Shown here piece by piece: positions 35,760-64,000 of a DNA stretch of 64,000 nucleotides. The notes under the pieces were generated by a model. The model saw nothing but the letters and a program-made list of their open reading frames with translations, had not been told where the DNA came from and searched no databases. The position numbers were made by a program, and so were the translations under genes. Source of the DNA: Isoetes taiwanensis (Eukaryota; Streptophyta; Lycopodiopsida; Isoetales; Isoetaceae); contig JAJEKV010000237.1 in NCBI GenBank assembly GCA_021234155.1, positions 124,001 through 188,000 of the forward strand, in the 5' to 3' direction. The stretch's first letter is position 1; each line of letters opens with the position of its first letter.

Positions 35760-35761
35760 GA

Positions 35762-36383
35762 TGAGAATATCTAGCAAAGATATTTATCAATCACAATAAT
35801 CCCAAAGCAAAATCTCAACTAGCTTCAAATAAGCTTCGAACAAATCTTTGTCCAACTACACATTCAACAATGTATTACCCTTGGTCAACAATAAGATATA
35901 CAATAGTTTGTCTTAAGACAATACTTCAAACTTTCAAATAAAGAGTAGGATATCGCGCAAGTAAGAAAAACACTGCAGTAAAACTTGTCCTCCCTTTACA
36001 CGATCGATACAACTGCAATTCCGGCTCAAATCCACTGGTGAATGGATCAATCTCTTCAGTGTATACGTCTCTGTCGTTTGCTTGCTCTTATAGCCCCTGG
36101 AGTCTACCGACAAGGCTACAAATCTGGACTAGATAAACTTACCAGTCCCGGAAGAAAGGCCTTGCGATATATCCCACAGGCATACCACTGAAAATGAGAT
36201 TTTTGACCATTGACTTGTATTATTCAATGGTCGAGCTCTCCTTTGCAATTTAAATATGTAACTTCACCATTTAAATTTAACAACTTAATCTCCATTATTC
36301 AAAGAGTGCATCTGCTTCTGCTTTCACCTGCCTGGCACCAGTGGAATGATCACATTATTATGCAATGATTTTATTTTCTAACA
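35762..36383 (-). repeat. Copia-1 5' LTR
   Basis: The 622-bp block starts TGTTAGAAAATAAAATC and ends CTAGATATTCTCA on the minus strand (TG...CA). It is followed after two bases by the primer-binding site. No second LTR exists in the window, so insertion age cannot be estimated from LTR divergence. Confidence 0.8.
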
Positions 36384-37013
36384 CAGTGAAAGGGGTGCAA
36401 TCTCTTCATTGCGTATCATCCATAGATCCAAATGATCCAACAAAGTTAATGTGTAGATCTCTTTCATGTTTTTGTAAGGCATGCATCAATTTTGATTGGC
36501 CTGCTTGTGAGAATGCTGATCATTGTGGCAGGTGGGAGTTGAGAAAACTAGAGCCTACAAACAGGGACAATGTTGAAGAAGATGGGTACGAGGCAGAGGA
36601 CTTGTGGGCAAATGACGTGGACAATGTGGATGAGAGACAGTCAGGTTGGAGATTATTTTGCATCATTCACATCCCCAGACAATTATGAAAGGGTCCCTTA
36701 TTATCTCATCCAGTGCACAGAAGTGAAACATGCCCTCGAAGAAGACACCAAGGATGACTATGGAAATGAATTTTATTGTGGTAATGAAGTTATAGCTGGT
36801 AACTACTTTGAATTGATTCCTGGTTGCCATCAAAAGTACAGGCTTATTCAAGGAAAGAAAGTTCTTGTCCATCCCGAGTCAGTAATTGGGGTGAGATTTC
36901 CATTGGAGCCAGTCAAACATAAGATTAAAGGTACATCTTATGCATATGAACTGACTAACTATTGGCATGAAATGTTGCTGGGAAATTTGCCAGAGATTGT
37001 AGAATCTCTGTAA
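36384..37013 (+). pseudogene. Composite element copy A: C-terminal part of the DDE-like gene
   Basis: The sequence encodes the Cys-rich tail also found at 57,180-57,797: LHCVSSIDPNDPTKLMCRSL, then CFCKACINFDWPACENADHC and GRWELRKLEP. After a one-base frameshift near 36,640 it continues GDYFASFTSPDNYERVPYYL to KGTSYAYELTNYWHEMLLGN and a stop at 37,013. Its partner at 57 kb reads GDNFASFALPGNEEDVPYYV at the same place, so the shift lies in this copy. All upstream parts of the gene were lost where the copia-1 LTR begins. The conserved Cys/His pattern (CFCxACxxFxWxACE...HCGxW) suggests a zinc-binding module. Confidence 0.8.
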
Positions 37014-39640: not shown

Positions 39641-39769
39641 TCAATTTTTTTTAACCTGCTTAAAATTATAAAAATAAAATGCAAGCGCGATCAACTTACC
39701 AAAAGAAGGACGTGTGTAACAAGATCCTGACGGGTCCAAATCGAAATAGAAAGCAACAAAGAGTTAGAA

Positions 39770-40105: not shown

Positions 40106-40589
40106 AATCTACACTAAATCATTCAATCCAAAAAACCATTCAATCCAAAAACCATGATCTACTAACCTTAAAAAGAGTGCTTGCAAGTCGTTCAAGGTAA
40201 ATGAATAGCGAAGATCGCCCAAAATAGTCGATAGAAGGAAGCCTAGGAATGGTCCCGGAAAAGACGGCCCGCGGGACTGTAAAAAACACACGGCGTCGCA
40301 TGCGACGTCGCGACGTCGCATCACGGCGTAATTTGAAATCGTATATACGATTTGAATCGATATATATCGATTTCAAAATCGTATATATGGTTTAACGTCG
40401 CATGCTTAATATCCATGACGATATTTTGTTATAGTGACGTCTAACACTTTTAATTTTTTGGTGCCTTTTTTTTCATCCGATGGTCATGAAAGTTTGTCCT
40501 TATGCTAATTTGGACATTCCCGAGCCATATATGTCATCAAAATCGCATTCGGATTTAACCAATCTTCTATTGCTACTACTTACGAATGT

Positions 40590-44650: not shown

Positions 44651-45269
44651 ATGAATGCAAAAGAACGCGATAACTAAAAAAAATTCTCGTGATCGAAAAA
44701 GGTGGAATTTTGACAAGCGTTTGCAACGTAACGCTTGGTGGGCGGACATGAGAAAACATTTCACTAGGATATGCGGTGTTGGTGCACGATGAAATAGCTC
44801 CGAAGTCTTCCGAGCTCACATGTCGCCACAAAAGTTCTCTTTACGAAGGCCCCGGCAATGGACGAGCAATTTCCCTCTCCAAAACCATGATTTGGCTCTT
44901 CCAATGGACTCGTAATATCGACATTACCCCCGGGACCAACTTTCATGGCGAAGACCACCCCTTGTTCTCCAAAAGAACAAAGTACACTAGACGCCCGCCA
45001 GACGCCCCGCGGCGATCACGTCGCCGCGACGGCGACGCCACGCCGCGACAAAAGTGACGACGCTGGGATGCGACGCGGGTCGTAGGCGCGGGCGCACTGG
45101 GCGTGATGATCTCGCGTCGCCGATTTGTCGACGTCGCACCACACGCCGCGATAATGACGTGTTCTGCGACGCGGACGCCGCATTGACGCGTCATGGTGAC
45201 GTTATTTGCGACGCCACGCCGCACAAACGCCGCAAGCCCACGCCGCTAAATGTCCATTCTCTTGTTGTG

Positions 45270-45545
45270 TGGTGTGGTACAAGGTCACAAAATATATCAC
45301 CGAAACAATCAAGTAACCGCTTTGATTGACCAAAAAGGGTACAAGGCTTCTTTAAATCGTAAATCTTTTTCTTAAAAAAAAAAAAAACTTACATAGTCAT
45401 AAAGTATACTATCAAGAGTATACTATTCAAAGATAGTGTCATTTACACATTCCTTATGATAGGAAATGTGAACACAAATGTGAACAAAAGATATATATAA
45501 GCCCTGTTACATAGTTCATCTTGCAAAATCGATACTCGGACTCAT
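45270..45545. other. Non-coding flank right of the CACTA-like element
   Basis: After the remaining tggtgtggta of the interrupted microsatellite the sequence is AT-rich, with an A tract near 45,377 and the word tatactatcaagag/actattcaaagat duplicated. I see no gene. Confidence 0.45.
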
Positions 45546-45547
45546 GA

Positions 45548-47701
45548 TCACCGAGAAATCGAGGAGGGCCGGGGGCCGACACGTTTTTTCGGATTGGCAT
45601 CACAATGCATGACCAAAGCATCTATTAGAAATTGTCGTCGTGGATGTATGTATTCATGAGAGAACCATTTAGATGTAATCCGGTGACATCCATAAATAAG
45701 GTTAGAAATATTTAAAGGAACATGAGATGCAAGACATACAAGGGAAGGCATACAACTTACTTCCATATCTCTACGAGACAAGAGCTTCAACATATTTGTG
45801 CATAAATCCCATCATATACAACCCACATGATGTTAAATCGGCCGCCGTGGCACCTCTACTTTTTGAATCCGATTAACATTATTTCTCTTCATGAAATCGA
45901 CGCCTCTAGATACTTGACCGATCGATGTGGTTAACATTTGTGTGTGCAGCCTACATATCACTTAAATTTAGCAGACCTAATTAGCGAAGAAAAGCAAAGC
46001 AACAACTTAAAGTATTACATACCCTTTGATTGCTTTCTCGCTCGTCGTGATAACCGTAAGAGGATTCAAGACGGAATTTCGTGCGGTAGGATCTTGAATC
46101 GATGGATGGTGCGAGCGAAAAAAACAGCAAAGACAAAATGGTCATTCTCAAGGATAGGTGCAAGGATATGATGGCATTTAGCTACCACAATCCCCTTCAT
46201 CCCCGATTTCACTATTTCAATGACATTCGGTGATCCTTCAACCGATTCACCCTTTCTTTTTGTCTTTGGTAGCTTCTCTAAACCTTATATAGTTGTAAGC
46301 GGGATAAAAAAGATTTTGCTCTTCCACCGAAAGGCAATGTCTCATACAAGCACCTGGATTAGATTAAGATTAATATTAGAGACAAGGAATAGCAACAAAT
46401 ACGGCTTCGGTTACAACCAGGTTATTACCCCGCCATAAAGATCCACTAAGCGGCTACTCATTTTAGAGTTAGTTGCACATAAAATTGCTATGTCAGATGC
46501 AACCACTTTCATTTCAGCCGGCGGATAGTTCTTGAATGGCGTTGAATTCCATAAGTTTATCCTTGTCATCATTTCTGTTGTCAGATCCAAGATGTTAGTG
46601 TCATATTAACAATTGATCCATGACAATAAAGCATAAATTGATACCTTCCAATCTCTGTTTCAATTGGTTTAGACCGCAAAAGCTAGTAGAATATAATAAG
46701 CTACCAAGTATAAGTAAGTCAATTAGTGTCATATTAACAATTGATCCATGACAATAAAGCATAAATTGATACCTTCCAATCTCTGTTTCCAAATGGTTTA
46801 GACCGCAAAACGAGTAAAATATAATAAGCTACTGAAGTATAAGTAAGTCAATGTAAGCTAGCAATTACCGTTTTGCAGCGGATGTCCCTGCTCTAGTTTT
46901 CACTCTCTTTTTTCCAGCTGTTTTGGCATCAGCTTTGACCATAAATTTAGTCGTTGCCTTGGCTGCAATCTCAAGGCTTCTTCAACATCATCTAGCTCCT
47001 TTGAATCGCCGCAAAGTCTCTCAAGACAAGAAAGTGCTTCATTCTAATGTTTTGAAAGCAAGACAAAAAGAAACACGCACACCGCCAAAGAACAAGCCTT
47101 TTCCTCAACTTGAACTTCAACATCAACTTCGGGATTTGTTTTTCAATGTCGCCACCAATATCTTGATAATTTTATCGTAAACACGCCAACGTAAGTTTCA
47201 AAATACAAAAAAAAAAATAGAAACTCGAAAAGGAGAGAGAATTACTTTTTCGGGCTTTCAGCCTAGTTGCTCCAATAATAGCGGCTTCGGCTTCAGCGGG
47301 TGGGATCTCTTTTTGGAAAACAACCTCTGCTGCAAAATATTGAACATTAGTGAACTCTAACTACAACAGATGCAATCTTAATGTAATCGAGAATGTAATC
47401 ACCCTACCTTCCACATACCCCTCTGTCTCCAAATCCCCAGACCGATTGCTTATGAGTTGTTGCAATTCTCAAAGGTGATGTAGATGTGGATGGACTTCCA
47501 ACATCGATAGCGCGAAATCTTTTGTGCCAGTTCAAAGAATTGGGATGTCCGAGAATGGTAAATGCAACCCCTTCCCAATAACATTCTTCTTTTCACCTAC
47601 AACATGAAATTTGGCTATATTCGAACTTAAGCATAGTGCACGAAACATGAATTGTTTAGTTTACCTGCAGTTTTACTTCTTCCTTTCTTGATACTACCCA
47701 T
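45548..47701 (-). pseudogene. Composite element copy A: MGSIKK gene (Ulp1-like), decayed
   Basis: The first exon at 47,701 reads MGSIKKGRSKTAG before a GT donor and parallels MGSIKKPEK at 61,409. A later exon (about 47,520-47,410) has SPSTSTSPLR, matching STPSTSRSPLN of copy B. Further pieces resemble cysteine proteases of the Ulp1/SENP (C48) fold. One is KVVASDIAILCATNSKMSSR (about 46,495-46,440), like the fold's N-terminal segment. Another is KSKIFFIPLTT, and a third is APILENDHFVFAVF, in which the His could be the catalytic one (46,170-46,320 region). Stops interrupt these pieces and a 138-bp tandem duplication lies in an intron-like stretch (46,597-46,870). Assignment of individual exons is uncertain. 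Confidence 0.5.
46597..46870. repeat. 138-bp tandem duplication
   Basis: The block starting agtgtcatattaacaattga is repeated once with an offset of 138 bp and only a few differences (for example a ttcaattgg/tccaaatgg change). It is a recent duplication inside the copy A minus-strand gene remnant. Confidence 0.8.
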
Positions 47702-47704
47702 GTC

Positions 47705-48465
47705 TGCATTGACACAATTGGGTGTCAATAAGAAATGTAAACACTTGATTCAGAATCAAGGGGAGATGTAGAGTAGATAGAAGCAAAATTTGAAGAAAAA
47801 ACAATCAGATGCAAATCAAAACAGAACAAATGTTAATTACATGCAAGTAGGTTTTACTACTTGTGCAAACTTTCTCGCGATAATGTAACGACAAAATAGA
47901 AGTACATTAGTGTACATAGCTATCACAATGTAAAGGAAAACCAAATACTAAATTCAAATGCATTTTGAGAACAAAATATTTTATCAATACACCTATCAAA
48001 TACATCATTCAAAGATTGAATGTAAAGGAAAGTCAAATACCAAATTCATATGCATTTACGATCACATGTAAATGCAAAGTCCGATCAATGCAATACACCC
48101 CGTAAAGGAATTCGAGAAAAGCACTTCATGGCACATGTAAATGTAAAGTATGAAGCAAATACATTTCCTCTTTACGGTAAAAGACAAAACCACGCCAAAT
48201 CAAATGTTAATACGATTATGTACATGATGGAAACTAACTACATCTAAGTACACTCAAACTAATTATGTAATCAAAATAGAAATAGATGTACCCTAGGAAG
48301 GGATTCCTAAGCGTGATATCGGAGTCCTCGGACCATGAACAATCATGTACACATGTATTCGTCGTTGAAACCCGAATATAAGACAAAATAGACAATATGT
48401 ATGACCACAAAGTGGAGATATTACCATGGTCGAAGTCAAGGCAATCATTGCAACTGCTGCAAGTA
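47705..48465. other. Spacer between the two minus-strand genes of copy A
   Basis: AT-rich DNA contains near-repeats of aatgtaaaggaaa and catgtaaatg words (47,925-48,150). There is no gene-like frame. The matching interval in copy B (61,410-62,420) is also non-coding. Confidence 0.45.
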
Positions 48466-48470
48466 TTGCT

Positions 48471-49513
48471 TTATATGTGAGAATGAAGCGCTCCCGCCTT
48501 TTTGTGAGTATGGGAGGCGGGCTGCAGGCCTATCGGGTCTGATCTTTCCAAATGCTTAGTCATCTCCTTTATTCTATTCTCACAGTTGGAATTAACTTCC
48601 AAATCCTTGCTGATTTTTTCAATGGCAGCTTCTAATTCTTGCAAATCAGTCTTTAAACAATCAATGGGAATCATTAGAGCATCTAAGTCGATAACTTGAT
48701 TTCTCCTCCTCTAAATGGGATGCCAAAGCCATTTGCACATCAGTTGGCTTCCCGCTTGCTTTTAAACCTGCCATAATCTTTGAATTGCTCACATATTTTT
48801 GCATCTTTACTCTGCACAAGTCTTGTCAAGAAGCTCTTATCACTCTCATGCTTCAACAGTTCAATTTCCATTGTTTTCCTTTTCTCTTTTAAAGTCTGTA
48901 TTTCATCAAGCATGGAGGCAGAATCTAATGCTCTTGTTTCCCTCCACCTTTTCATCATTTCCAATTGCTACCCCAATTCTACCTGAGGCATACATTTAAT
49001 AGCTTTAACATTGGAAGACTTTACTGTAGCTAATTCTATCATGTCAGATTCTTTTTGAGAGCCTTTTGAATGAAGACTTGCACTTGCTTTCACCTCATCC
49101 CAATCAATGCTTACTCCTTTGTAATGAAGTGCATATGCTCGGGCAAAATACAATGGAATGTGATGATTTGCAATGCCCCTCCTACAAAAAACATGCTCAT
49201 ATACAGAAAAAAAATCTGCCATCCAACCAGGCTTAATCCTGCACTCTTGATAACCCCTAACAGCAGGGGCTTCAGAACCCCAAACATCCTGCACTGTTTG
49301 CACTAGCCCTGGAAACATGCTATCAAAATTGTTGCTCCTAAGCTGCCTGATGCTTACCTTGTCAAACTCGGGCGGCAAGACCTCCCGATCTAAAGAAGAC
49401 CCACTCTTGAGTTTTCGGGCGGCAGTTCTAGTGGGAGACCTTGGCATGGGCTTTAGAGGTTTGTTGCGAGGAGATTTCCTTGGATATGTCTTTGTTCCAA
49501 GCTGCTTCGTCAT
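48471..49513 (-). pseudogene. Composite element copy A: coiled-coil protein gene
   Basis: The frame from ATG 49,513 starts MTKQLGTKTYPRKSPRNKPL, a basic Ser/Pro/Arg-rich head. It continues through VWGSEAPAVRGYQECRIKPG and YFARAYALHYKGVSIDWDEV to VATVKSSNVK-type sequence. These blocks recur in the same order at 63,642-62,784. A TAG at 48,968 interrupts the frame, which then goes on as a coiled coil (LDEIQTLKEKRKTMEIELLK). Two further frame changes near 48,740-48,670 lead to LKTDLQELEAAIEKISKDLE and a final stop at 48,471. I do not recognise the family. The conserved head plus coiled coil suggests a DNA- or partner-binding accessory protein of the element. Confidence 0.6.
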
Positions 49514-49559
49514 GATCTCTTCCCTGGTGCTTCAGCTCTCTGAAAATGCAAGCTTTTGG

Positions 49560-49917
49560 CTATGGAAGTCCTGATCTTGGCTATGGAGGTTCGAATATAG
49601 ATGTCAAGCTTTCAGCTATGGAGGTTCGAATATGGATGTCAAGCTTTCGGCTATGGAGGTTCGAGCGGGAGGAAGGTTGAACAGAGCACGGGAGGAGAGT
49701 TCAAAATTATTTGCCCTATTAATGATTCATTCCAAGAATAATAATTTCTGGGGGGGAGGGATTTCCTTACATTTTGAATTTGTAAATGTAAAATACAGGC
49801 ACTTTTTTTGCCCACCCTTTCATGCTTCTACCCTGCTCCTGCCAAATATATCAGGCAACCAATCAGTCTTCTGTATGGTACATTCTTTATATAATCTACT
49901 TCTTCTTTTGTTGCAGG
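49560..49917. repeat. Terminal region of copy A with 36-bp repeats
   Basis: The unit ggctatggaggttcgaatat plus ggatgtcaagctttc occurs about three times at 49,557-49,665. The following 250 bp is AT-rich with a G run (49,752) and no gene. The truncated 3' side of copia-2 begins at about 49,918, so the right end of the composite copy A lies here. Confidence 0.55.
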
Positions 49918-52900
49918 TGACATCTTCTCACTGATCTTATGTCCAGGCACTAATGGTGTACTTGCAGCATTACAGTTCTCCATCTTAAATCTTTCCAATA
50001 CTCCCTGAATATAACTTCATTGTGTCAAATTCAAAATTTTGTTACTTTTGTCTCGATCAACTTTTATTCCCAAAATTTTTCCCAATTCACCTAAATCAAA
50101 CATTCTGAACCTTTGCTTCAACAGCCTTTTGCATGTCTCAAGATAGTCCATATCATTTTGAGCTTCTTAAAACCTTGTCCAGCAAGTATTTGTCTATGCA
50201 AGTGTACCATGCACGAGGGGATTGTTTAAGACCATACACTGCACGTTTAAGCCTCCAAATTTTTCCTTCTTCATTTTCATAACCAGCTGGTGGTCTCATA
50301 TAAATTTCCTCCTCAAGTTCAGCATTTAAAAAAGCTGTACTTACATCCATGTGGTGTATTTCATAACCTAACGAATTAGCCAATGCTAATAACATTCTTA
50401 TGCTTGCCATTTTTACAATAGGTGAGTATGTATCATTATAGTCAACTCCTTTTTGTTGCGAGAGTCCTTGTGCAACCAACCTAGCCTTAAACTTCTTCTC
50501 TCTATCTGACAATTCTTTGCCTTTGAAGATTCATCTATTTCCTACAATGTTTTTCAGACTCGGTTTATTCACTATTTCATATGTTTCAGTTTTCTGGAAA
50601 GCTTTTCGTCCATAGCAGATTTTCAATGCTTTCTATTTTCAGTGCTCATTGCTTCTTCATATGTTTGAGGTACATGAAGCTCCACTACTGACATTAATGC
50701 AGGTATGTTTGTTTCCTCTTCTCGTTCTAATCTTCTACTCCTTCCATCTATTTCTCTTCGATGGTTTTCCATGACAATACCTTTATCTTCTAATTCTCGT
50801 TTCAATCTCTGAGCTTTGGCCATTCTTCTTCTTTGCCATCATGTTCAATCTCAGGTCTGTCTTCACTCCTATGTTCTTTTATATCAGCAAAAACAGGTGG
50901 CTTTATAGCTAACTCATCGTCATCATCATTTGTATATGCACTCTCCTGATCCTTTGCAATAATTTTATTTCCCTTTTTTTGATTCTTATGGCTGCAATTT
51001 TCGATGTCTTTGTACAACTTATTTTCTACAAACACTACATCTCTACTTACTAATATCTTTCTGCAATGATGATCAAACAATTTGTAATCCTTTGCCTCTT
51101 CATCATATCCAATTAGATATGCTATTATAGCCCTGTCATCAAGCTTTTGTCTCATTTCCTGAGGTACATGTACATAAGCTAGACAGGCATAGGCTTTAAA
51201 TTTTTCATATTCTGGTATTCGTTTAGACCACAAAGTTTCAGGAATATCTCCATTTATGCTTATACTTGGCAGTCTATTCTGTATGTATATGGCAACCTTT
51301 AATGCTTCTTCCCAAAACTTATTTGGTAACCCAGAATATTTAAGCATAGCTCTTAGAGCATTCAAACAAGTTCTGTTCTTTCTCTCTGCAACTCCATTCT
51401 ACTGAGATGTAAATCTACAAGTTAATTGTCTTTTGATTCCATTTTCTACACAAAAGTCTTAAATTTTCTAGAGATGTACTCTCCACCACGATCTGATCTT
51501 AAGCACTTTATTTTGTTTCCAGTTTCTCTTTCTACTTCTGCTACAAATTCTTTGAATGCTTTTAATGCTTCACTTTTTCTTTCCAAACAATATACTTTTG
51601 CTTTTCTAGTGTAATCATCAACGAAAGTAATGAAGTACCTCTTTTTTATATAGCTCCTAACATTGAGTGGTCCACAGATATCTGTGTGCATAAGTTCCAA
51701 TGGTGCTTCAGCCCGTTTGGTTCGTTTTTGAAATGGCAGCCTTGTGCTTTTTCCAAGCATGCATCCCCTGCAAATGAAATTCTCGTATTCTGTTTTATCA
51801 CTTGTATTATATCCAAGCTTGCTCAATGTTCTTATATTATTAATATTTGTGTGATCAAGACATTCATGCCAGGTTCTTAAATTTGAAACTGTCACATTGT
51901 TAATTATTGGCATATGTTCTGTCACATCCAATTCAAACAAGTCTACTCTTTTTGCCCAGAAACAAATTGTATTATCCTTTTCAACAGTACAAAAGAGTTT
52001 AAACCTAGGTCCACTAACTGGCTCATTGAAATCAAATTTTTAACTATTCCAGGAACACATAGCAATTTTTCCAACTCTACTGGCTCTCCTTGTAGATTGT
52101 ACAATTTCAGCACTTCTTTGATTCTTCCATCTCCAAGTCTGATCCGTCTTAAAAATTGCTTCTCATCCTTCTTTGTAAGCAAATTTGAATCCCCTAGGAT
52201 TGTTCTTTCAGCTCCTGAATCTAAAACAAATGATGATTTAGAATCTTTATCTTTACTTGAAATACTAGAAACAGCATTGATTACCTCTTCTTCTGAGTCA
52301 CTTCTTCATTTTCTTTCACAACAATATTTGTACTTGCTGCCCTGATACCTTTGCCTTTCCTTTCTCAACAACCCTCCAATTACCTTTGCATCTACCTCTT
52401 CCTCAGCCTCTTCCAAGATCCCTTGGGCTGGGACACTTTGTAGACAAGTATCCTATTCCACCACAAGTATAGGTTTGCTTCCATTTCGGACAATTAAATT
52501 TCAAGTGTCCTACCTCTCCACAGCCATAGCATGGCCCAACCTGTCTATTTCTACCTTCAACAGAACTCTTCCCCTTTCTTACCATCAGCACCTCGGCTGT
52601 ATCCTCATCTTCTTCATCAACCTCCTCCATCATTAGGGCGGATTTGGGGTCTCAAAATGGCCTCGAAAGAAAAATTCCATGTCATATTTTCTCTTGCTTA
52701 TTAATTGTACTTTCCTTCTCTTTAATCGCAATAAATACTCAAAAAGTAACTTCATCAATTAGTTTTTGGGCCATAACTTTTGATTCATAGCTTCAAATCG
52801 CAAGATTTTTGTTTCATTGGATGCGGAATCAAAAGATCTATCCAACAATATATGGGTTGAATGTATTTTAATCTAATTTAGATGACCAAAAGTTAAAAAA

Positions 52901-53823
52901 CGAGAAAAAACCTGGTTTTTTGCATTTTTTTTAGTCTTTCCTTTTATCAAAAGCATATCAAGGCTATACTCATTGGAAAGATCTCGCCATGAGCTATCCA
53001 ACGCAACAAACGGCGTGCAATTTGGATATCACAATCACAAGTTATAGCCAAGAAACGATGCATTTGAGTTAAAAAGTGCAATTATTACAGTACTATTTAT
53101 TGGCTTGAAGGTACTATGACGTGGATATTAGAAATTAAAGTTAAGGGCCATTTTGAGACCCCAAATCTGCCCTAATGAACATACTTCTGCTCAATTTCTG
53201 TTTGGGCTATATGTGCAGCCTCCTCTCTTGTTTTAGCAATAGTACGTACAAGTTTAGCCAAATGTTCAAACTTAGAAAACATTCTAGAGATGGCTAAAAT
53301 CTGATGATTTACTGACATGGTTACACCAACAGCCTCCAAGTCTGCACATAGTGAATCAAACCTTTGAACATATTTATTAACGACATCTTCTCATCAAATT
53401 TAACTTTTCTGATCTTCTTTTCTAATACATCTATCTGAGATGAGCTTTTATCTTGATATGTCTTTATTAAGTATTTCCACCTTGCTTTTATTAAGTATCA
53501 AGATATGCTTTTATCTCAATTTCAGCGTTATACTTGGTGCCACCTTGCACATAATAATTGCTTTGGCCTGTCCTACTTTCAGCTCTTCACTGAGCAAATC
53601 ACTGCTATGACTTCCTTCCTTTGATTTAGCAGTAGACTCACCTGTTGGAGTTGTTGCAGGACTGCTTGCTTCTTCTGCTATAGTAGCATTTGGCTCAATG
53701 ATGTATCATAGTCCTTCAAATTGTAGCACTTCTTTCACTTTCTCTTTCCATATTTGAAAGCCTCCAACACCCTGAAACACTTCAACTGATGCCAATAGAG
53801 TTGCTCCAAACCTTGTGGACATT
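49918..53823 (-). pseudogene. Copia-2 gag-pol, multiply disrupted
   Basis: Gag starts MSTRFGATLLASVEVFQGVG (53,823) and is split by a CATTAG element. It resumes with a CCHC knuckle, CYGCGEVGHLKFNC, and a second damaged one, CGGIGYLSTKC. Protease is recognisable only by VLDSGAERTI-like sequence near 52,225. Integrase has HECLDHTNIN, CRGCMLGK, MHTDICGPL and FVDDYTRK, then a stop near 51,460 before NGVAERK. Reverse transcriptase is present from KARLVAQGLSQQKGVDY through MDVSTAFLNAELEEEIYMRP and VYGLKQSPRAWY. The frame then jumps from DKVLR straight to MDYLETCKRL. The segment that should hold the catalytic YVDD is therefore deleted, and another stop follows at about 50,020. It cannot be functional. 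Confidence 0.85.
52631..53177. mobile_element. CATTAG foldback element, copy 3, inserted in copia-2 gag
   Basis: The termini CATTAGGGCGGATTTGGGGT and (reverse complement) CATTAGGGCAGATTTGGGGT are almost identical for about 35 bp. They continue CTCAAAATGGCC on both sides. The interior contains CATAACTTTTGATTCATAG on the left and ATCACAAGTTATAGCC on the right, equivalent to copy 2. The flanking Gag codons can be joined across it, showing a simple insertion. I find no convincing target duplication. Confidence 0.8.
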
Positions 53824-53846
53824 GTTAGATAGAGCTCTGATACCAA

Positions 53847-54265
53847 TGAAAGATAATGATCAATCTAACTAGAGTTTACTCTTATGCAAACAACTTCACA
53901 TAATATTTATTCATATGAACCAGCAACAATGTCACACAAAGGAGTATATATATCACGAAGTATTTAACATGGAAAGCAAAGTTATTCAATGAACTCAGAC
54001 TCAACTTTGCACAGCTGTATCTGCCGACCTGCTTACCCATTGGAGCCGATTCTGCTTGTATATATTGTAGAGGACCACCGCTTTCTAGTGATCCTCCAAT
54101 CTTCTTCATTGATAAATCTAGCAAGTAGCTAGATCTTTGTTTTCGCAAGCACTGGTCTAGTGCTACTGTTCATCGTCCCATATATTGCTATATCTGTATA
54201 TAACCAATGGTTCAATAATGTAACTTCAAAACTTATTCACAATACCATATAGAATATTCAATGAC
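53847..54265 (-). repeat. Copia-2 5' LTR (outer edge approximate)
   Basis: The inner edge is clear: the LTR ends ATTATCTTTCA one base before the primer-binding site. The outer edge is taken at a TGTGTCATTG start near 54,265, but TGTGAATAAG near 54,242 is also possible. Length is therefore about 400-420 bp. Confidence 0.6.
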
Positions 54266-54289
54266 ACATCAACCTAGGTTGGGTAAAAG

Positions 54290-54769
54290 CACGTTAGGGT
54301 GTCATACATTAGGGGGCAATTCATGTAAACTTTTGAACGGGTTGCTGAATTTTAAATGTACTTATTTCATGTATAAATCTTGTCTTATATATTTAAAAAG
54401 GGGCAAAATTCCCGTTTGTTTGTAATTATGACGAGTAGAGGCCGGCGGTTGATGCGAAACTCCTAGAGGAAATTCCTCCCTCCAATTTCCTCCAGGAAAA
54501 TTCCCTCCAGAAAAATTTCCTTCCAAGAAAATTCCCAAATCGAACCAAGAAAGTAGAACACAATTTGAATTTTTTCGGGAGAGGGAAAACATGCAACTGG
54601 GTGATTTTGAAACCGAATGTGGCGATCGTGAAAACATGCAATCCGGTGATTTTGAAACCGAATGTGGCAAACATCGATGGCATCCGGTGAATTCAAAATT
54701 GTGAAGAGTAAACAAGGGTGGCATGCATTAATTTCGAAAAGTGGGAGAGATGAGAAAGGGAAAAAGAAG
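54290..54769 (+). other. Left terminal region and leader of composite element copy B
   Basis: Before the DDE-like start codon lies about 480 bp with tcaggaaaattccctcc-type repeats (54,465-54,535) and a near-duplicate gtgattttgaaaccgaatgt (54,602 and 54,647). The far end of the window (63,915-63,945) carries ggagggaattttcc in the opposite sense, so these may be inverted subterminal repeats of the element. Overlapping minus-strand frames here are repeat artefacts. Confidence 0.4.
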
Positions 54770-57700
54770 ATGGCGAGCATGATAGCGAAATTGAAAAGGG
54801 TAGTACATCCTCAAGGTATGTTACCAAAAAAATAAGGACCGGTGTGCAAAAATGTTACATTGTTATGAGAAAAGAGAAATTTGAATCTCTCGGCCCTAAT
54901 CAAAGGTACTTATTTGCTTCTAGATTCTTGCAAGATCACAGGCTATTGGAGCTTTTTGAACCTGTGATTGGCTTGCCTTCACAAGCAGTGGTCAAGCATG
55001 CAATTTTAGAAAACCTTAAAGATGGATTGGAAGAGGTAAAATGCTCTAATAGTGGTGATAAATTGGTTGCCAAGCATTCAGTTTTATCAATGGTTGTGGG
55101 GAAAAATGGTGATTTGAAGCAAAAGGGAATTGCTTGCAAGATGCTCAAATGCCATCCCCGAAATCTTTCATATGCTGCTAGCAGAAGAAAGAGAATGGAA
55201 ATTGCTGGTTCAAGCATTTGGGTATTAGCAGGCAGGAAGGCTAGATCTGATTGTTTGGATGAAGAAACCAAGCTAAAAGTCATCCAGTTCTGGCTTAACA
55301 ACACCAAGGTTTCACCAAAGTACAGGGATGTGAGGAAAAAAAGAAGCGAGGCAATCCAGTATCTTGACATTCCTCAGATATTAAAGCTTTTGTCAAAGAA
55401 ACTATTACATTTCAGTTTCTTTTTAGTTTTCATGTACATTTTTATGCACATATGTGAATTCCTCTACCAATCTTAGTTTACTTGCTTTGATGTAGCCTTT
55501 TTGGTCTGTTTTGCTTACTGTATTATACATGTAAATGAGGTTTATAGGATCAACTACTTGCTCTTAGAAGTATTTCATGTATATTATGTGATATATATGT
55601 ACATAGTGTAAGGACGTAAGATTAAATGTGCAGAAGTGAACTCCTTTGCCTTAGTTTACTTGCTTTGATGTAGCCTTTTCGGTCTGTTTTGCTTACTGTA
55701 TTATACATGTAAATGAGGTTTATGGGGTCATCTACTTGCTCTTGGAAGTATTTCATGTATATTATGTGATATATATGTACATAGTGTAAGGATGTATGAG
55801 TAAATGTGCTATAAATTGATACTATACATAATCTACTGTACATATGTATTGAATATGTATAGATTCAATCAAATCTTTTTACATGTACAACTGATATGTA
55901 CTGGTATACATAGTATTTCTTACTTATGTACTGGATATGTAAGGTATTCAATGCAATCTTCTCCAACTTACCTATTTTCTTTTTGCAATGTGCAAATTTT
56001 GTATGAGCACTTTGTGGAGGAGAATCCAGATCTGAGATGTTGGTATTAGAATGTTCGAATACCTGAAACCAAGTTGCATAAGGAAATTGAAGGAGAGAAA
56101 CACTTGCTGTTGTGTCAAGCATGAACAAGCAGAGAATTTCAGAAAAGCTTTCAACTCTATGAGACTGAAGTTTCACATAAATTGCAGTTGCAATTGTGAT
56201 GTATGTGCTGTTGGTACACATGATGGGGTTTGTCAGGCATAAAAGCGTACATTTTGTAATGTTAGCACTCTTTGGAGAGAAATGGTTTGCCAAAAAGAGG
56301 AAAGGGAAGAGTGGCACAATCTGAAGTGCATAAGGGGGGATTGTGAAAAATGTGGTAAACAAAAGATTCCCTTATATCCAAAAGAGACTGATCAGAATAA
56401 TGAAGATGATGCTAAATGGCAGGCTTACTGTTATATGGACGAGAAGTCAAGGAAGGGCACTTCTAGAGGTCTAAGATTGGTGGAGAAGCAAATATATGCT
56501 CCTTTCATGTTATCTGCCATGTTTGATCACATGAAAAAGTTTGTGCATCACAACTTTGCAGCTCATTGGCAGAGCAAGGAATTTAGGAGAAGCATTCAGA
56601 GTCTAAGAGATGATTCTGTGATATCAGTAGTAGACTTTGCAGAAAATTACACATTGCAGCCCTTCAAAGAAGTGCAGTCTGAACATTGGAATGCCACTAT
56701 TTTGGTACACATCACTCTCTTCAAGGTAAATGGTAAGTTGCAGAAGACTGTTCACTTATATGTTTCTGATGATAGAAGTCATGACACACATTTTGTACAG
56801 CATGCATTTCAACTTCATCTTCAGTGGTTGAAAGGGAATGGAGGATCTCACATGCGGTATTATCTCGTGTGGTCAGATGGTTGTGCTGCTCAGTTCAAAT
56901 CCAGAAGATCATTCTACTTCAGATGCAGGTACCATTGTCAGCATGGCATTCGTGTACAATGGAATTTCTTCGGATCAGGACATGGGAAGGGGGAACATGA
57001 TGGAGAAGCTGCCAAGGCCAAGCAACTCTTGGCCAGTGAGCAAAGAAGAGAGCATGGAATTAAAATAAAGGGTGCTCATGATGCCTGTGTTGTTTTGAGA
57101 AACAAGAAATCTCAAGTTCGTAGAGTGTGTTGGGAAGTGAAGGAGGCTGAGATTGACAGGACAAAGCCATTTGATGTGCAACCCCTTCCTGGTGTCCAAA
57201 ACTGGCACTGTGTATCTTCCATAAGTCCGGAGGACCCAACCTTACTGATGGTTAGACCACTATCTTGTTTTTGCAGTGCCTGCATAAACTTTGAATGGCA
57301 GGCATGTGAGTCTATTCAACACTGTGGAAAGTGGACATTGAAGAAGCTAGTCCCATGTGCACATGCTGAAGGTACAGAATTGGAATCAGAAACTGCAATG
57401 TTTGCAAATGAGGTAGAGGAGTTACATGATGTGATACAGTTTGGTGATAATTTTGCTTCTTTTGCTCTTCCTGGTAATGAGGAAGATGTGCCATATTATG
57501 TTCTTGCTTGCACTAGAGAAAAGCATGGTCATTGATGCTTACAAGAATGAGCATCATGCAGGTGACACAGTCATATCAGCTTACTATTATCTGAAATTGC
57601 CAAGTTGCCATAACAAATATAAGCTGTTGGATGATAGAGAAGTATTGGTACCAGTAGAGTCTATTATTGGAGCTAAATTTCCCATGAAGAAGATAAATCA

Positions 57701-57797
57701 CAGGGTTAAAGGTGCTAGTGCAGCTTTTGCATTGTCTGATGATGTGCATGAGATGTTGCTAGGACGTCTTTCCGAAATGGTGGATGCCTTGGATTAG
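54770..57797 (+). pseudogene. Composite element copy B: DDE-like transposase candidate
   Basis: The ATG at 54,770 opens MASMIAKLKRVVHPQ, and the frame breaks at a run of seven A. The first large block (54,844-55,370) includes RYLFASRFLQDHRLLELFEP and IQFWLNNTKVSPKYRDVRKK. After an intron carrying a 178-bp tandem duplication comes FVEENPDLR and, one frame over, MFEYLKPSCIRKLKERNTCC. A TAA (56,240) precedes the main frame (to 57,533). The core shows VVDFAENYTLQPF, YVSDDRSHDTHFV, VWSDGCAAQFKS and FGSGHGKGEHDGEAAKAK, with Asp, Asp and Glu spaced as in an RNase H-like DDE fold. A Cys-rich tail, CFCSACINFEWQACE, follows. A last frameshift (about 57,525) leads to a stop at 57,797. I recall similar uncharacterised proteins in cnidarians and other animals; the catalytic assignment is inference. 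Confidence 0.65.
55470..55825. repeat. 178-bp tandem duplication in intron
   Basis: The block starting ttagtttacttgctttgatg at 55,473 is repeated at 55,651 with few differences, through atatatgtacatagtgtaag. It lies in the intron between the first and second coding blocks of the DDE-like gene. Confidence 0.85.
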
Positions 57798-58009
57798 GTG
57801 AAGGCTTTGAATTTGCAGTGGTTTGTATTGTGTTACTTTTTATATTTATGTAATGGATGTATGAAAATAAATTTCCATTCACTGTGTGAACTACCTGGTT
57901 TTTGTAACTTATAGCATGGAACATATTGAAGTTCAAATTGTAGACAAGTGCAAAGGGTACACATAATTATATTTCTGAAGCAAATAGTACAGTGTACACA
58001 CTTAATAAC

Positions 58010-59395
58010 TTAAGAAGCAGGCCTAATCACTATGTCATTTGGAACATAATATCTCAGTACTATTGCATCATGCAAGCCTTTCTTCCAACGGTTTTGAGGA
58101 TTTACATCTGCTACAACAGTAGCACTTGCTGTTGGACATTCTCTGGCTATTGGAAGGCCGGTCCACCCTATTGGCTGATCATCTACTTCTGCAAAGGATG
58201 GTCTCCCCCAAGGATTATGTAGTAAACCTTGGACTGCAAGTAGATTTAGCAAATTGCTTCGAGTATCTGAATCACTGATTCTCTCAACCATTTCCCAAAG
58301 CTCAGGAAGCATGGTATTCGACCTTGGATTAGTCCCCCGGCCAGCATATTGGGAACTTAGATTTGTTTCTTCTATATCAGTTGGTTGAAGATCTACTTCA
58401 GCTGGTTGAAGACTTTGACATTTGTTTTGTAGATCATTACAATGCATACAAAATTATTAGCATATCATGTGAAGGCTTAACTGTATTACCTAAGTTATGT
58501 ACATACAGCCTGTATTGCAAAAGCTCTACAACATACAACATCTAAGCATAATTGTATTACCTAAGTTAGATACATACACGAAGATGTGCCCATGTCCTCG
58601 ACTTGTTTACTATCTGATGTACCAGCACACTCATCTTGTACCCGACCTTCTACAAACTTCGAATGTTTACTATCAGATGTACCAGCACAATCATCATCTT
58701 CACTAGATTCTTCTATTACTGTGAATCTCTTCACTGTGATGCTAGACTTCTTATTTAGCAAGCAACCTCTATTGCAAAAACTCCATAAACTATCAATGTC
58801 TTCACCATATTGAGATTTTATGCATTGAACTACTGTGTCATTGTATGCACGAGAAGTATCAAATTGATGCTCTTGGACATAAGTGGTAAAGTCATTTGCA
58901 TTCTTCAAGCCTACAAACCAGTCAAATAGCCAACACAAATCTTTGTCTTCGCCAGTTAGCCTGGGATGTCATACTGGTATGCAGCAAGAGCAACCCTCAT
59001 TGAAGATACATTTGAAAGGAAGGTCAGTAATCATAACACATTTATTTCCGTATTTTGGATACTTGAGGAGAGGAATATCCAAAGGGAAAAGAAATATGTA
59101 TGTCCCATCATTGACCTCTAAGAAGAGGGTCCAACATCTATTGCCACCATAAATGAATTTAAATCTTGGTATGCCTTGCTCATACAACTTGTCTACAATG
59201 ACTGTCAGAACATCCAAGGGAAAATCTGACCAAACAGCCAAATCCCAATGGTTGGAACACCAGTACAACAATGATTTCGACAATGGACGACAAAAGAAGA
59301 CTCCATCAGGTAATTGGATTGGCACTTGAGTGCCATTATAGTCACTGGGTGCTGATTGATAATAGTAACCCAAAATGCCTTGGCACTCTTCTGCC
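58010..59395 (-). pseudogene. Composite element copy B: FCP1/SCP-like phosphatase domain block
   Basis: From about 59,373 downward the frame reads QLPDGVFFCRPLSKSLLYWC, then NHWDLAVWSDFPLDVLTVIV, then KYPKYGNKCVMITDLPFKCI. A TGA at 58,971 follows. In the same frame comes LTGEDKDLCWLFDWFVGLKN with ANDFTTYVQEHQ. The order matches the second half of FCP1/SCP-type HAD phosphatases: RP plus aromatic helix, vWS segment, nucleotide-like DDSPxK-like loop and final helix pair. The N-terminal catalytic DxDxT segment is not found, and the DDSP loop is TDLPFK. Even without the stop it may be a non-catalytic relative. The tail (58,447-58,010) is hydrophilic and unrecognised. It may be the 3' part of the Ulp1-like gene, because the strand and spacing fit, but the frame changes near 59,375-59,420. 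Confidence 0.5.
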
Positions 59396-59419
59396 CAGTG
59401 ACAACTTGTTTTGTCTCAT

Positions 59420-61409
59420 CTCTTCTTCTCAAACCATGTTCAATCATGGCTTTTATTAATACATTTCTTCTGCCAAGTGTAAAATCCTTGTCGAACCAGG
59501 TTGATGAAAACTGCAACAAACACAAGAATTAAGATCCGCTACATTAAAACATCCCAAAGGATTTATGTGAAATATAAGAACAACTCACCATGCTTTTAGA
59601 ATTCACTTGGGCATCCACAAAAGCTTGCATAAAGGCCATCACATAAAGACCACAGCTTACACTATCTGGTTGTTGTGGAACCTCTGGAATAGTTTCCTTC
59701 TTCACTGCATTCTTCACATATAATTCAACTCTACGTGAGCTAGAGTTGGTTAGATATGTGATGACATCCTTATGAAGCCTGCACATACAAATGAGAACAT
59801 GCAACTAAGATTTAAGCAAGCACGAGTACATATACTGAAAGAACATGCTCACATATTTAGGAGTTTGCTGTCCACTGTTATACCAGTCATGGAGTTCAAC
59901 ACAATAATTGCAAGAGAAGCCATTGAGGTGGTACTGCAATTTTTTGCAGACTCTAAAACAAAAATCACCAAAACATGATGGGCAGGGTCCTCAACTTGAA
60001 CTGGAACCATAATATACTAGCATTTACTAACAACAATGCCTTGTAGCCCTTTCTCAATCGCACTCTGCCGACCGTCCCCATCTTGTTAGCATCCGGGGCT
60101 AATCTTTTTAAATCTTTGCCCGACAAGTCAAAAGTTTTTTCTGAAGGAAGAAAAGAAGACATCTCGCCATTTGGATGTCAATGTGCTGCTCACATACCTT
60201 CCGATGTCTAAATGTCTGTTAGACATGTGCCTATCTTTAAACAATGTCTCCACACAATATTTCGTGATCTTAATCAGAGGTTCAGCTTGGAACGGATAGA
60301 ATAGAACCATTGTATGAAGGTTATCCATGTCACTGCAAACCAAGCATCAATGGTAACTAGCATAAAACACATATTTACTAATCCAATTACACTTACAGTT
60401 GCTCAACTGATGTCTGGCTTCTAGTTCTCTTAGCTGGCCGCGACACATTTGTATCTTTTCTTTTTCTTGACTCTTTCACGTTCACACCACTATCTGTATC
60501 TGTTCTATCCTCAGATTCCTCCTTCTCTTGCTTCACCACAACCACCTGCTTCATATCTGTAGCCACATTCTCCACTAAAATTTCTTCAGTACTAGTTGTA
60601 TATGTTCCTGTCTTATGTGATCGATTGTAGTTCCAACTAAGGCCATAGATCCACTAGTTTCCTCTGTTTCTGCGAATAATAAAATGTATGAACATGCAAT
60701 AAATAAATGCAATAAGTAGTTTTTGACTTACCATTTGAAAACTTGACATTTCAAGTTGACTTGATGATGTGGCATTGGCTTTAGAATTGGTATCTTACGC
60801 ACCTTGTCTACAATCGCTTTTTTTTCTTGAGTGTCGAAGACCTCTACAATAATATCTTTTTTCTTTAGAGTGTCAGAGACGGCTTCATTGTTCTCCTCGC
60901 TCGCTGGTTCCAGTACTACAAGATAATTCATTGTCAACAGCAGCATAAACATCAAGAAAATGTAGAAATTAAACTAATATGGACACATACCTGTGTTGCC
61001 ACATTCAGCCCTTTGCTTCAGGAGCTCAATTTGTTGTGCATATGAAGCTACAATTGTAGCTTTGCTTGTGACAACTGTATTTATTATTAAAATAATGAGC
61101 TCAATTTGCTTCCTTATAAAATCCAGCAAATTCATTTAAAACTAATTACTTACTTGATGTTCCTTTTCCTCCTCTCTCATGCTCTGCTACAAATGTGTTC
61201 AATGTGTTCAGAGGTGACCTAGATGTGGACGGGGTTGACTTATCATGCTTCCCTCCATAATAATCATCTACACAACTTGAAAAATCAAGTGTCTTTGGGA
61301 GGATCTACTCGTTTCTTGCGGCATCGCATACAAGGTGAAATTGAAATACATATGAAGAGACCATAACCACATATCACATACCTTTCTCTGGCTTCTTTAT
61401 ACTACCCAT
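59420..61409 (-). pseudogene. Composite element copy B: MGSIKK gene with Ulp1-type protease sequence
   Basis: Exons with fitting splice borders run from 61,409 (MGSIKKPEK), 61,268-61,150 (DDYYGGKHDKSTPSTSRSPL) and 61,075-60,990. They continue with 60,915-60,730 (an acidic/basic stretch) and 60,645-60,402 (a Lys/Arg-rich, nuclear-localisation-like KESRKRKDTN and RPAKRTRSQ). Next come 60,334-60,200 (MVLFYPFQAEPLIKITKYCV), 60,160-60,010 and 59,955-59,860. The exon at 59,780-59,590 has VPQQPDSVSCGLYVMAFMQA, the Gln-x-Asp-x2-Ser-Cys-Gly motif with the catalytic Cys of Ulp1/SENP proteases. A final STWFDKDFTLGRRNVLIKAM follows. The His-Trp motif that should precede the Cys is not intact: the equivalent segment (SMASLAIIVLNSMTGITVDS) has Ser-Met there. 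Ulp1-like domains are common passengers of plant DNA transposons. Activity is unlikely here. Confidence 0.6.
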
Positions 61410-62060
61410 GTCACCTGCAAGAATGAAAGCATTACCAATAGTAACTAGATGACTGAAAGAATATTAGTGCCCACTATAAACCAAAACCAGAAAAGCAATG
61501 TACAATCCAATTCCAAATGTACTCCATGTATCTCAGATTGCGTAACTATGTACGCTTTTATGTACCCACATCCAAATGTAGAAAGCTTCCTAGAAAAAAA
61601 AAGAATTCATAAATGCATTCCATGTAGTTGTATTAGATATATTAGATATATGTATTTGGAGCCAAGTGTAGAAAAGCTTCTGGAAAATTGTAATTGCATT
61701 AAAATGTATCATAGAGTACAGCAGGTATCAAAATGTCCCCCCAGTAGAAGACCACATGTTATACAAATGTACACACAGGCAGTTACCTACTTATCCTATT
61801 TTCTTAGTACATAAAAGTAACTCCTCAATAATATTTGGCAACACTGTACATCATGCACATTAATAATATGCATGTATTAACATGATGTTTACACCAGCCT
61901 AGAAAAGCAAAACGATCCAACCCTACAAATCTTCACTTCAACCTACATTTTAAAACCCAAATGTAATTAATATACTACAGAACAATTAATGCACAACCAA
62001 CGCACAACTTCTAACTAATATCCATCTACCAATCTTACACCTGAACTAATCAAGAAAGAC
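61410..62060. other. Spacer between the minus-strand genes of copy B
   Basis: AT-rich sequence has no supported gene. It corresponds to 47,705-48,465 of copy A. Confidence 0.4.
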
Positions 62061-62065
62061 ATCAG

Positions 62066-62410
62066 TGTTGTCCCGTACGCGTACCGTACCGTACGTACTG
62101 TACGTATTTTTTAAAAAATACGTTTTTTTCAGCCATACGTACCTTACGTACGTTTGGAGTATTTTTTAAAAATAAAAAAACAATGGTTAAATAAAACAAA
62201 ACAGTGAAATAAAACATAAAACTGATGTAGGGGAAGTTGGTTAGCATGTTAGTTTGCTATCTAGGAGGCTCAGGTTCAATTCCTGGTAAGTGCAAGTTTA
62301 TTGTTTTGTGAAAAACAAGTAGTATTTAAAAAAAAAAACGTCAGGAGTATTTTTTAAAAATACATACGTACGTACAAGTACGGTACGGAATGGATCCTTT
62401 TCAAAAAATA
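62066..62410. mobile_element. TACG-rich inverted-repeat element with inserted SINE-like core
   Basis: The left edge cgtaccgtaccgtacgta, followed by tattttttaaaaaatacg, faces the right edge attttttaaaaatacatacg with tacgtacaagtacggtacgg. The two edges form inverted repeats of about 40 bp made of tacgta/gtacgg words. The tRNA-like core at about 62,228-62,300 lies between them, suggesting an insertion. Confidence 0.5.
62226..62300 (+). mobile_element. tRNA-derived SINE head with boxes A and B
   Basis: TAGGGGAAGTTGGTTAGCAT resembles a tRNA D-arm (box A). GGTTCAATTCC, about 35 nt later, is a perfect box B, and cctgg/caggt pair around it as a T-arm. A complete acceptor stem is not formed, so I read it as a SINE or tRNA-like relic, not a functional tRNA gene. 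Confidence 0.5.
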
Positions 62411-62426
62411 CGCGTAAAGAAATTGA

Positions 62427-63642
62427 TTATGCATGCTTACCTTTTCCAATCAGCCCCAATGCACGAGGTTGATTCACATCCCATGTGCAGCCTGGTACCG
62501 CGCAGTTGTTCCTTGTGCTAGCAAGATAGGAGATATATGATAGGCAGTAAGGATATCTGCAAGATGCCAATACCACTGGGGAGGAACCAAAACACTGCTC
62601 GCAATTTGTGCAGGACTGAAAATCAGCATTTGGTTGCTCTGCAACTGAAACCAAAGAAAGAGGAGGAGGCTGCAAGCTAAGGACCGACGAGTGATCTAAG
62701 AACTTCCTCAACTCCAAAATCTTTGTGTCCCCCTCCTCAATTGCTTTCTTTTTTGAAGACCTTAAATTAAGTTCAGAATCTAGCTACCTCAACTCAGATG
62801 CTTTTGCTTCCACTTCCTTGCTAAGCTCAGCTAGATCCCGCCCCCGTTTGCTCTTCTGTGCAATTGCATCCTCCACCTTCCATTTTATGTGCTCAAACTT
62901 CATAGCACTACCGTCACTTTCATCCATCTGCTGTTGAAATTCCTGCAACTCTGACATTAGATTCAAGTAATTAGTCTCGGCCTCATGGACTAGCTTAGAA
63001 TATACTGCCCTTTCCCCTTCCCTACGCTTCAAAGTCTCATATAGCTGCAGTCTTGTCTCCTGTAAATTCTGCATCTCCTTACATATGCTTTCCTTTAAAG
63101 AGGATCTGCTCTCAAGAAATACATTCAAACTGTCCAGATCTTCTTTTTTGTAGAAATTATCATCGGACTTGTGGCCCTTGGCATTGCTCGACTTAACTGT
63201 TACAACTTCAGTCAAAACCTCGGATTCTTTGACCTTGCTTTTAGCTGTGGCTGTTTTTTTCACATCATCCCAATCAACTGATTCACCTTTTAAGTGTAAG
63301 GCAAATGCTCGAGCAAAATACAATGAAACATAGTGATTCTGTACATCTTTCCTACCGAATGCAAACTCGTACTACTTGAAAAATTATGCCTGATCTTCCA
63401 ACTTCACCAGCTCATCCATGTACCCGTACCTGGTAGGTTCCTTAGAGCCCCAAACTTCTGTCACTAAAGAGTTGTATTCTGCAAATTTTTCCTTGAATTT
63501 CATATTTGCCAGATCCCTTGCAGAAAATACTGTGTCCTCATTTCGGTTCTCCTTGCTACAGCCAGGACTTCCAGACTTCAAATGTGTCCCTGCTTTGGAA
63601 GCCCTGGGAGATTTTCGGACTGATGCAGAGTGTCTTTGCCAT
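62427..63642 (-). pseudogene. Composite element copy B: coiled-coil protein with Cys-rich C-terminus
   Basis: The gene begins near ATG 63,642 with a basic head (RKSPRASKAG). It continues VWGSKEPTRYGYMDELVKLE, then TAA and TAG within a few codons (63,391-63,375). In the same frame comes YEFAFGRKDVQNHYVSLYFA and LHLKGESVDWDDVK, matching copy A. A coiled coil follows (KEMQNLQETRLQLYETLKRR, LMSELQEFQQQM, RDLAELSKEVEAKASELR). A TAG at 62,784 is read through in frame to LDSELNLRSSKKKAIEEGD. The end has a Cys-rich segment (SCTNCEQCFG, ASCRYPYCLSYISYL, NNCAVPGC) that resembles a RING-type or related zinc finger with one Cys replaced. Copy A has no such tail in recognisable form. Three in-frame stops but few frameshifts suggest recent loss of function. 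Confidence 0.6.
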
Positions 63643-63649
63643 TGTCTAT

Positions 63650-64000
63650 ACCTGCAATGCAACAACAAATATCTTTTAATTGTCCTAAAGGTGCAACAAT
63701 CTGAGCTTGCACATGTAAGCAAAAACCTAAAGTAATAAATTAAAAGCAGAAAGAAGAAAACTAGGGAAGAAAACGATTGTACCTTTGATTTGTTGAGAAT
63801 GACCAAGCGACTTCGGAAGAGCGTGCTTTAGTCGCTTGTAAGAGATCAAGGTGCTGGATCGTAGGGTAAAAGCAAAGGGATCAAAGGACCAAAGAAACAA
63901 GAACGGGGAAGAAAGAATTGGAGGGAATTTTCCACTGCCTATTTTCGGTCGAAAAAAAAACTAAAAGTCACATGTATTAAAATGACCCAATATTTTATCA
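63650..64000. other. Right edge of the window, promoter side of the coiled-coil gene
   Basis: This is upstream sequence of the minus-strand gene, with a purine-rich stretch (63,880-63,925) and ggagggaattttcc (about 63,921), which echoes in inverted form repeats at 54,465-54,535. The right terminus of the composite element is either here or just beyond the window. Confidence 0.4.

Follow-up and report, generated by a model that had tools for sequence, protein, structure and literature searches.

Genes and termini of the element

Here we report the analysis of a DNA transposon, termed copy B, at the end of a 64,000-nucleotide stretch of the Isoetes taiwanensis genome (C257:124001-188000; the window is this whole stretch). 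The element carries a plus-strand gene for a transposase with three conserved Asp residues (DDD; DDE in our search lists), followed by two minus-strand genes, one with Ulp1 peptidase exons and an FCP1/NIF-type domain, and the other encoding a coiled coil with a RING-like Cys/His tail. Copy B spans positions 54281 to 64019, its right end lying 19 bp outside the window, where it was seen in L029. An earlier note on this DNA had placed a composite mobile element at 54290..64000; the element is there, while its bounds are those given here.

The left end is sharp in copy B and in the genome copies c2, c3, c4, and c5, and reads GGGTAAAAGCA. The left 21-bp terminal inverted repeat (TIR), GGGTAAAAGCACGTTAGGGTG, occupies 54281..54301 and has its partner at 63999-64019, of which the first 2 bp (63999..64000) fall within the window. 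The left 4-bp target-site duplication (TSD), GGTT, at 54277..54280 recurs beyond the window end, at 64020-64023 (L029). Copy B is a complete, bounded TIR DNA transposon, although a decayed one, with a frameshift near the end of the transposase gene, a missing FCP1 motif I segment, and altered RING-like Cys/His positions. A TIR search on the window sequence alone found nothing beyond the 15-bp match GGAAAATTCCCTCCA, which recurs exactly but inverted towards the two ends of copy B (54495-54509 and 63919-63933); the left end holds several GGAAATTCC-like repeats, this match among them, which are possible protein-binding repeats.

The genome searched comprised 1,658,258,908 bases in 1110 contigs, from which ten copies (c1 to c10) were fetched, a non-random choice made for good transposase matches. 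Both ends were found in c2, c3, c6, c7, and c9, the left end alone in c4, c5, and c10, the right end alone in c8, and neither in c1. The TIR is perfect (21/21) in B, c2, and c3, and c6, c7, and c9 have diverged versions with 13 to 16 of 16 fixed positions matching. The earlier note had proposed as a check the extraction of further copies with their termini and target duplications, and this gave a 4-bp TSD in all six copies with both ends (B, c2, c3, c6, c7, and c9), each TSD different from the others (GGTT, ATGT, AGTG, CACT, TCTT, and TGTT; that of c7 is given by one of two possible right ends). These six copies are 8.8-11.6 kb long. The family, with many copies and a length of about 9 to 12 kb, is almost certainly one of cut-and-paste DNA transposons.

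Gene order and linkage across the genome

Linkage of the genes was assessed in lists holding the best 98 of 11696 candidate transposase matches and the best 150 of 1471 candidate NIF matches, which merged into 97 and 135 loci, respectively. A NIF match lies within 15 kb of 24 of the 97 transposase loci (copy B included), against 0.24 expected under random placement, and all 24 are downstream and on the opposite strand. For the coiled-coil gene, eight pairs with the transposase were found within 25 kb (97 x 100 loci; 0.29 expected), in six of which the coiled coil lies downstream on the opposite strand and in one on the same strand; the remaining pair joins the coiled coil of a second window copy, copy A, to the transposase of copy B. 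At least one minus-strand gene piece follows the transposase in all ten fetched copies. The exceptions to the arrangement are a plus-strand coiled coil in c4 and plus-strand NIF matches located upstream of the transposase in c1 and beyond the right end in c6. In copy c4 (L015/L016), the minus strand holds two Ulp1 blocks and the plus strand three coiled-coil blocks, a layout that is rearranged or nested.

The termini, target duplications, and gene order in genome copies show a composite mobile element, as the earlier note had proposed in stating that these genes travel together; the refuting outcome that it had named, unlinked genes in genome-wide copies, is not borne out, the genes being linked well above chance. 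As copia and other repeats abound in the window, separate elements might have nested there by chance, but this explanation is hardly credible in view of the 24 linked transposase-NIF loci against 0.24 expected and of the matching TSDs and termini that flank the genes in 6/6 copies with both ends.

Copy A, located at 36350-49833, has the same gene order and orientation as copy B, namely a plus-strand transposase gene and then two minus-strand genes, with protein matches between the two copies in each gene. The transposase C-terminus (36350-36685 and 36552-37010) matches 56243-57532 and 57435-57794 of copy B (E = 1.3e-24 and 2.0e-27), the Ulp1 part matches in one piece at 45949-45774 (E = 8.4e-5) and then another at 45676-45605 (E = 0.002), and the coiled-coil gene at 48971-49531 matches 62787-63371 (E = 5.9e-20). 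Both copies contain the words CFCxACINFxW, MGSIKK, and YFARAxALHxKG. Copy A thus comprises a 5'-truncated transposase C-terminus (36350..37010, plus strand), Ulp1 remnants (45605..45949, minus strand), an MGSIKK start read from the frame (47684..47701, minus strand), the coiled-coil gene (48333..49531, minus strand; 67% to L028, C257:172266-173525), and a right TIR (49813..49833). The earlier note had described it as a repeat of copy B at 36.4-49.6 kb. The order stands, but copy A is not counted as a full copy because it has no left TIR in the window: it is decayed and 5'-truncated within the window, only its right end is present, with the terminus at 49833, and the FCP1 part was looked for there and not found.

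Between the transposase and Ulp1 parts of copy A, diverged GC-rich (about 0.46-0.53) direct repeats offset by about 2.3 kb occupy 40559-45015; the corresponding gap is likewise long in c10. At 37815-38344, a CACCA-rich 114-bp minisatellite is followed by a GGT-rich array. A Copia-type retroelement with gag and integrase domains lies on the minus strand just upstream of the truncated copy A (32982-35770), and Copia-related remnants lie on the same strand at 50805-53864.

The transposase

The plus-strand gene of copy B consists of an N-terminal part (54754..55473), an open frame that is kept in genome copies; the DDD core of RNase-H fold with its Cys-rich tail (56243..57532), recognized by homologs, invariant Asp residues, and predicted fold; and a C-terminus in a shifted frame (57435..57794), which belongs to a single 563-aa open frame in copy c2. 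A 178-bp tandem duplication lies inside the gene (55472-55809), with matching pieces in c1, c2, and c3.

The core has 172 homologs at E<=1e-3, the named ones being from Taxus and several animals, and its predicted structure is an RNase-H/DDE fold. Three Asp residues are invariant in all 59 family members; they fall at RNase-H positions by secondary structure and are presumably catalytic. As judged from these homologs, the plus-strand protein belongs to a eukaryote-wide DDD family, and the label "animal-type" given to it earlier does not hold. Over the core, no Pfam match above cut-off was obtained in the 59 members (DUF6597 matched below cut-off in two), and neither rve (the Gypsy-like integrase) nor the MULE (Mutator-like element) transposase domain of Pfam matched any of them at E<=0.01. 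A fold search of BFVD gave nothing at E<=0.001, and the viral and prokaryote collections gave 63 and 12 pattern matches, respectively, with zero confirmed relatives. The only PDB match from Foldseek, to NurA, was weak (E = 1.1e-4, TM about 0.1) and was not used. One related DDD homolog, P0095, has an OTU cysteine-protease domain (PF02338, 1.4e-5), and therefore protease cargo may recur in this DDD family.

The Ulp1-NIF gene

The first minus-strand gene begins with a putative first coding exon, MGSIKK (61382..61409; frame reading, exon end inferred), followed by an upstream exon (60131..60334) read from the frame and from genome copies, an Ulp1 exon with the putative catalytic His (59852..60010; frame reading), and the Ulp1 peptidase exon with QQPDSVSCG (59589..59777). 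The frame at 59547-59804 matches the Ulp1 family PF02902 (E = 7.8e-8; 32.8 bits against a cut-off of 20.7), in agreement with the earlier assignment of an Ulp1-type gene. We take QQPDSVSCG to contain the catalytic Gln and Cys of Ulp1, and the exon at 59852..60010 presumably has Asn at the usual position of the catalytic Asp, a replacement read from the frames of both B and c9. The last Ulp1-side exon (59379..59510), for which in-frame splicing to NIF is possible in sister copies, is followed by the FCP1/NIF-type HAD domain without its motif I segment (58972..59379), and by a C-terminal extension (58564..58968) that forms a single open frame with NIF in L031 and L032. Further downstream, a conserved 3' piece (58013..58438), either a last exon or separate, has minus-strand counterparts in c1, c2, c3, c4, and c5. 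All of these features are on the minus strand.

The FCP1-like block of the window, taken alone, had no relevant Pfam or PDB match, and neither had the c9 NIF fragment. Its relatives, however, match PF03031 (NIF): E = 1.1e-13 in L038, 4.4e-12 in L030, 4.8e-12 in L035, and 6.9e-12 in L036, so that four of six proteins score 45.8-51.6 bits against a cut-off of 21.8, with L032 (21.5) and L033 (19.6) just under it. The single PDB match of L035 is the phosphatase UBLCP1 (3shq; E = 8.9e-5). The earlier FCP1-like call is borne out by these sister copies, and it is because they match NIF/FCP1 that we assign an FCP1-type identity to a window block that is itself invisible to Pfam and PDB. In the alignment of the domain (A2), motif I, whose complete form is DxDx(T/V), reads DID in L030 and c9, DLN in L035, D(L/I)Q in the copy-B lineage, and EIQ in L033; L030 and L035 retain the later DD pair, which is altered in the copy-B lineage. 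Alignment breaks relative to c2 and c3 indicate that the window copy lacks the motif I segment together with the preceding intron. The element's domain thus resembles the FCP1/NIF phosphatases of the RNA polymerase C-terminal domain, such as UBLCP1, in its HAD fold family and its database matches, but differs from them in being joined to Ulp1 and in the change of motif I from DxD to DxN or DxQ in two lineages.

A possible end of the last Ulp1 exon in c2 and c9 is G|GTAGTTAA, after which the NIF exon continues in phase 1. Such a junction is possible in five of nine further loci, and the other four (L033, L035, L036, and L038) do not have this exact donor within 700 nt. It is therefore possible, by splice inference, that the Ulp1 protease domain and the FCP1-type phosphatase domain are fused in one gene. 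A division into two genes, suggested by the Ulp1 frames stopping before NIF, was rejected for the loci with this donor, as the stop falls within the potential donor GTAGTTAA; for the other four loci, either one gene or two may apply. The joined Ulp1-FCP1 query, built from the broken window copy, found no relative among 3192 candidates from the protein database at E<=0.001. An open frame in L039 (1067-1597), in which the last Ulp1 exon is joined directly to the RING-like tail, looks like a derivative with an internal deletion.

The coiled-coil gene

The second minus-strand gene comprises an N-terminal part (63387..63827; an open frame with the coding start somewhere inside), a conserved block with the coiled coil (62787..63371), and a degenerate RING-like Cys/His tail (62430..62783). 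An intact 420-aa frame is present in c10 (L028:228-1487), and the protein has 107 matches at 100 merged genome places (100 of 2479 candidates scored). The structure model has a predicted local distance difference test (pLDDT) score of 62.9, with the coiled coil confident and the RING-like part below 50. Copies c9 and c10 have an intact motif C-x2-C...CGHxxCxxC...CxxxC; in window copies A and B it is degenerate. Seven RING models of Pfam matched the L016 piece at E = 0.0019-0.73, every one below its cut-off, and the PDB matches were weak (TRAF2, 0.073; RNF4, 0.12). Of the coiled-coil/zinc gene proposed earlier, the coiled coil holds by its confident model, and for the putative zinc part there are the weak RING matches just given. 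The motif is suggestive of a RING domain, which we treat as a lead rather than a finding because the matches are weak and the model of the tail has low confidence. The intact protein found no relative among 5870 candidates from the protein database at E<=0.1.

Selection on the transposase and its cargo

Selection was estimated by the Nei-Gojobori method between copies for the transposase, NIF, and coiled-coil parts. For the transposase (10 pairs), dN/dS values were 0.15-0.16 in four diverged pairs, 0.31 for c4/c5, and 0.81 for the recent pair window/c2, with four pairs saturated. For NIF (15 pairs), they were 0.32 and 0.38 in diverged and 0.52 and 0.45 in close pairs, with 11 saturated, and for the coiled coil (10 pairs), 0.19, 0.15, and 0.21 in diverged pairs and 0.23 in a close one, with six saturated. 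These values are rough because mostly open frames were used and synonymous divergence (dS) is high; as rough estimates, they point to purifying selection on all three parts between diverged copies, which argues that the cargo is maintained and is not dead weight.

The minus-strand genes could instead be host genes captured by chance (transduplication) and hitchhiking in the element. Capture of Ulp1 by plant MULEs is already known, according to the available part of a 2026 review (PMC13317346), and NIF and RING are common host domains. The apparent purifying selection weighs against chance capture, as do the order kept even in c9, whose NIF part is only about 31-33% identical to that of B, and the lack of database protein relatives of the cargo at the thresholds used. 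We consider such a capture improbable.

Classification of the element

Target duplications are 8 to 11 bp long in MULEs and KIU and read TTAA in Kolobok, while Chapaev and Academ have their own transposase families, with 4-bp or 3- to 4-bp TSDs. The TSD of the present element differs from that of MULE/KIU in its length of 4 bp, and it is TTAA in none of the six copies. Ginger1 shares a 4-bp TSD and Ulp1 with the element, the published elements carrying an Ulp1 or OTU domain (PMC2836005, in its available part). As described there, however, Ginger1 has a CCGG/CCGT TSD, a TGTNR 5' end, a Gypsy-like integrase, and an Ulp1-transposase fusion, none of which was seen here: against the CCGG or CCGT/ACGG duplications and TGTNR end, the element has six other TSDs and the end GGGTA.

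The closest general likeness is to the Sola superfamily. In the available text of its description, Sola has a DDD transposase, a 4-bp TSD, TIRs of 11-1124 bp, and a size of mostly 2-9 kb, with some over 15 kb, and is present in the moss Physcomitrella (PMC10741241); in slime moulds, the TIRs of Sola2 are 12 to 21 bp long and its 4-bp TSD is AT-rich (PMC3627910, likewise in part). The element shares the DDD triad, 4-bp TSD, short TIR, and size with Sola1, Sola2, and Sola3, so that it may be a Sola transposon with lineage-specific cargo whose transposase is nothing new, for which the chances appear evenly balanced. The likeness is one of general features, and the TSDs here are not AT-rich as those of slime-mould Sola2 are. 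Moreover, the Sola descriptions, as far as their available text goes, do not mention the Ulp1-NIF or coiled-coil/RING cargo that this element carries.

Alternatively, the transposase may represent an undescribed DDD superfamily spread over eukaryotes, which we find plausible but short of an even chance. In its favor are the 172 homologs, a core that in 59 members matches no Pfam transposase family (apart from the sub-cut-off DUF6597 in two), and the absence of Ginger, MULE, and Kolobok hallmarks, but absence from Pfam is not absence from transposable-element libraries (Repbase and Dfam). No profile was found that places all parts of the element in an already described superfamily; such a placement is what, according to the earlier note, would have refuted its proposal. 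Ulp1 cargo in transposons has long been known. What is new is the present cargo, namely Ulp1-NIF together with the coiled-coil/RING-like gene; among the papers listed by searches of open-licence literature, none described a transposon with NIF/FCP1 cargo.

Proposed function and significance

Our overall explanation, which we consider likely, is a transposon family with a DDD protein and two further genes, which recur in the same order and in opposite orientation. The DDD protein would bind the termini, excise the element, and insert it with a 4-bp stagger. The domains suggest that the Ulp1 part may act on host or element proteins by removing SUMO or a related modifier. The NIF part may bind phosphoserine/threonine targets, the RNA polymerase II tail for example, or dephosphorylate them; as its catalytic motifs are eroded in the copy-B lineage, it may only bind there. 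The coiled-coil/RING-like protein perhaps serves as a scaffold or a ligase.

Jointly, the two genes would most likely have an accessory role, either countering host silencing or tuning the transposase, as reported for VANC (KIU) of Vandal. These Ulp1-carrying VANC genes reportedly bring about hypomethylation in related elements (PMC13317346), and we see in KIU/Vandal (Kaonashi) the best functional parallel: like the present element, they are DNA transposons of plants in which an accessory gene bears Ulp1, and for Vandal there is an anti-silencing link. In the available text of the same review, the function of the Ulp1 domain in such transposons is called unknown, KIU/Vandal are non-TIR MULEs, unlike the present TIR element, and the word phosphatase is absent. 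An anti-silencing role of the cargo is tentative and somewhat doubtful. Still less probable, and in our view unlikely, is the broadest scenario: an undescribed eukaryote-wide DDD superfamily with a plant lineage encoding an Ulp1-phosphatase fusion and a RING-like ligase, which would evade silencing by acting on SUMO/ubiquitin and on the phosphorylation of the RNA polymerase II tail.

From this analysis come a family of many-copy elements in a deep-branching vascular plant and a large family of DDD proteins outside Pfam coverage. A natural fusion of Ulp1 and FCP1-type domains, apparently under selection beside a coiled-coil/RING-like gene, would tie transposons to SUMO and to the transcription machinery in a concrete and testable way.

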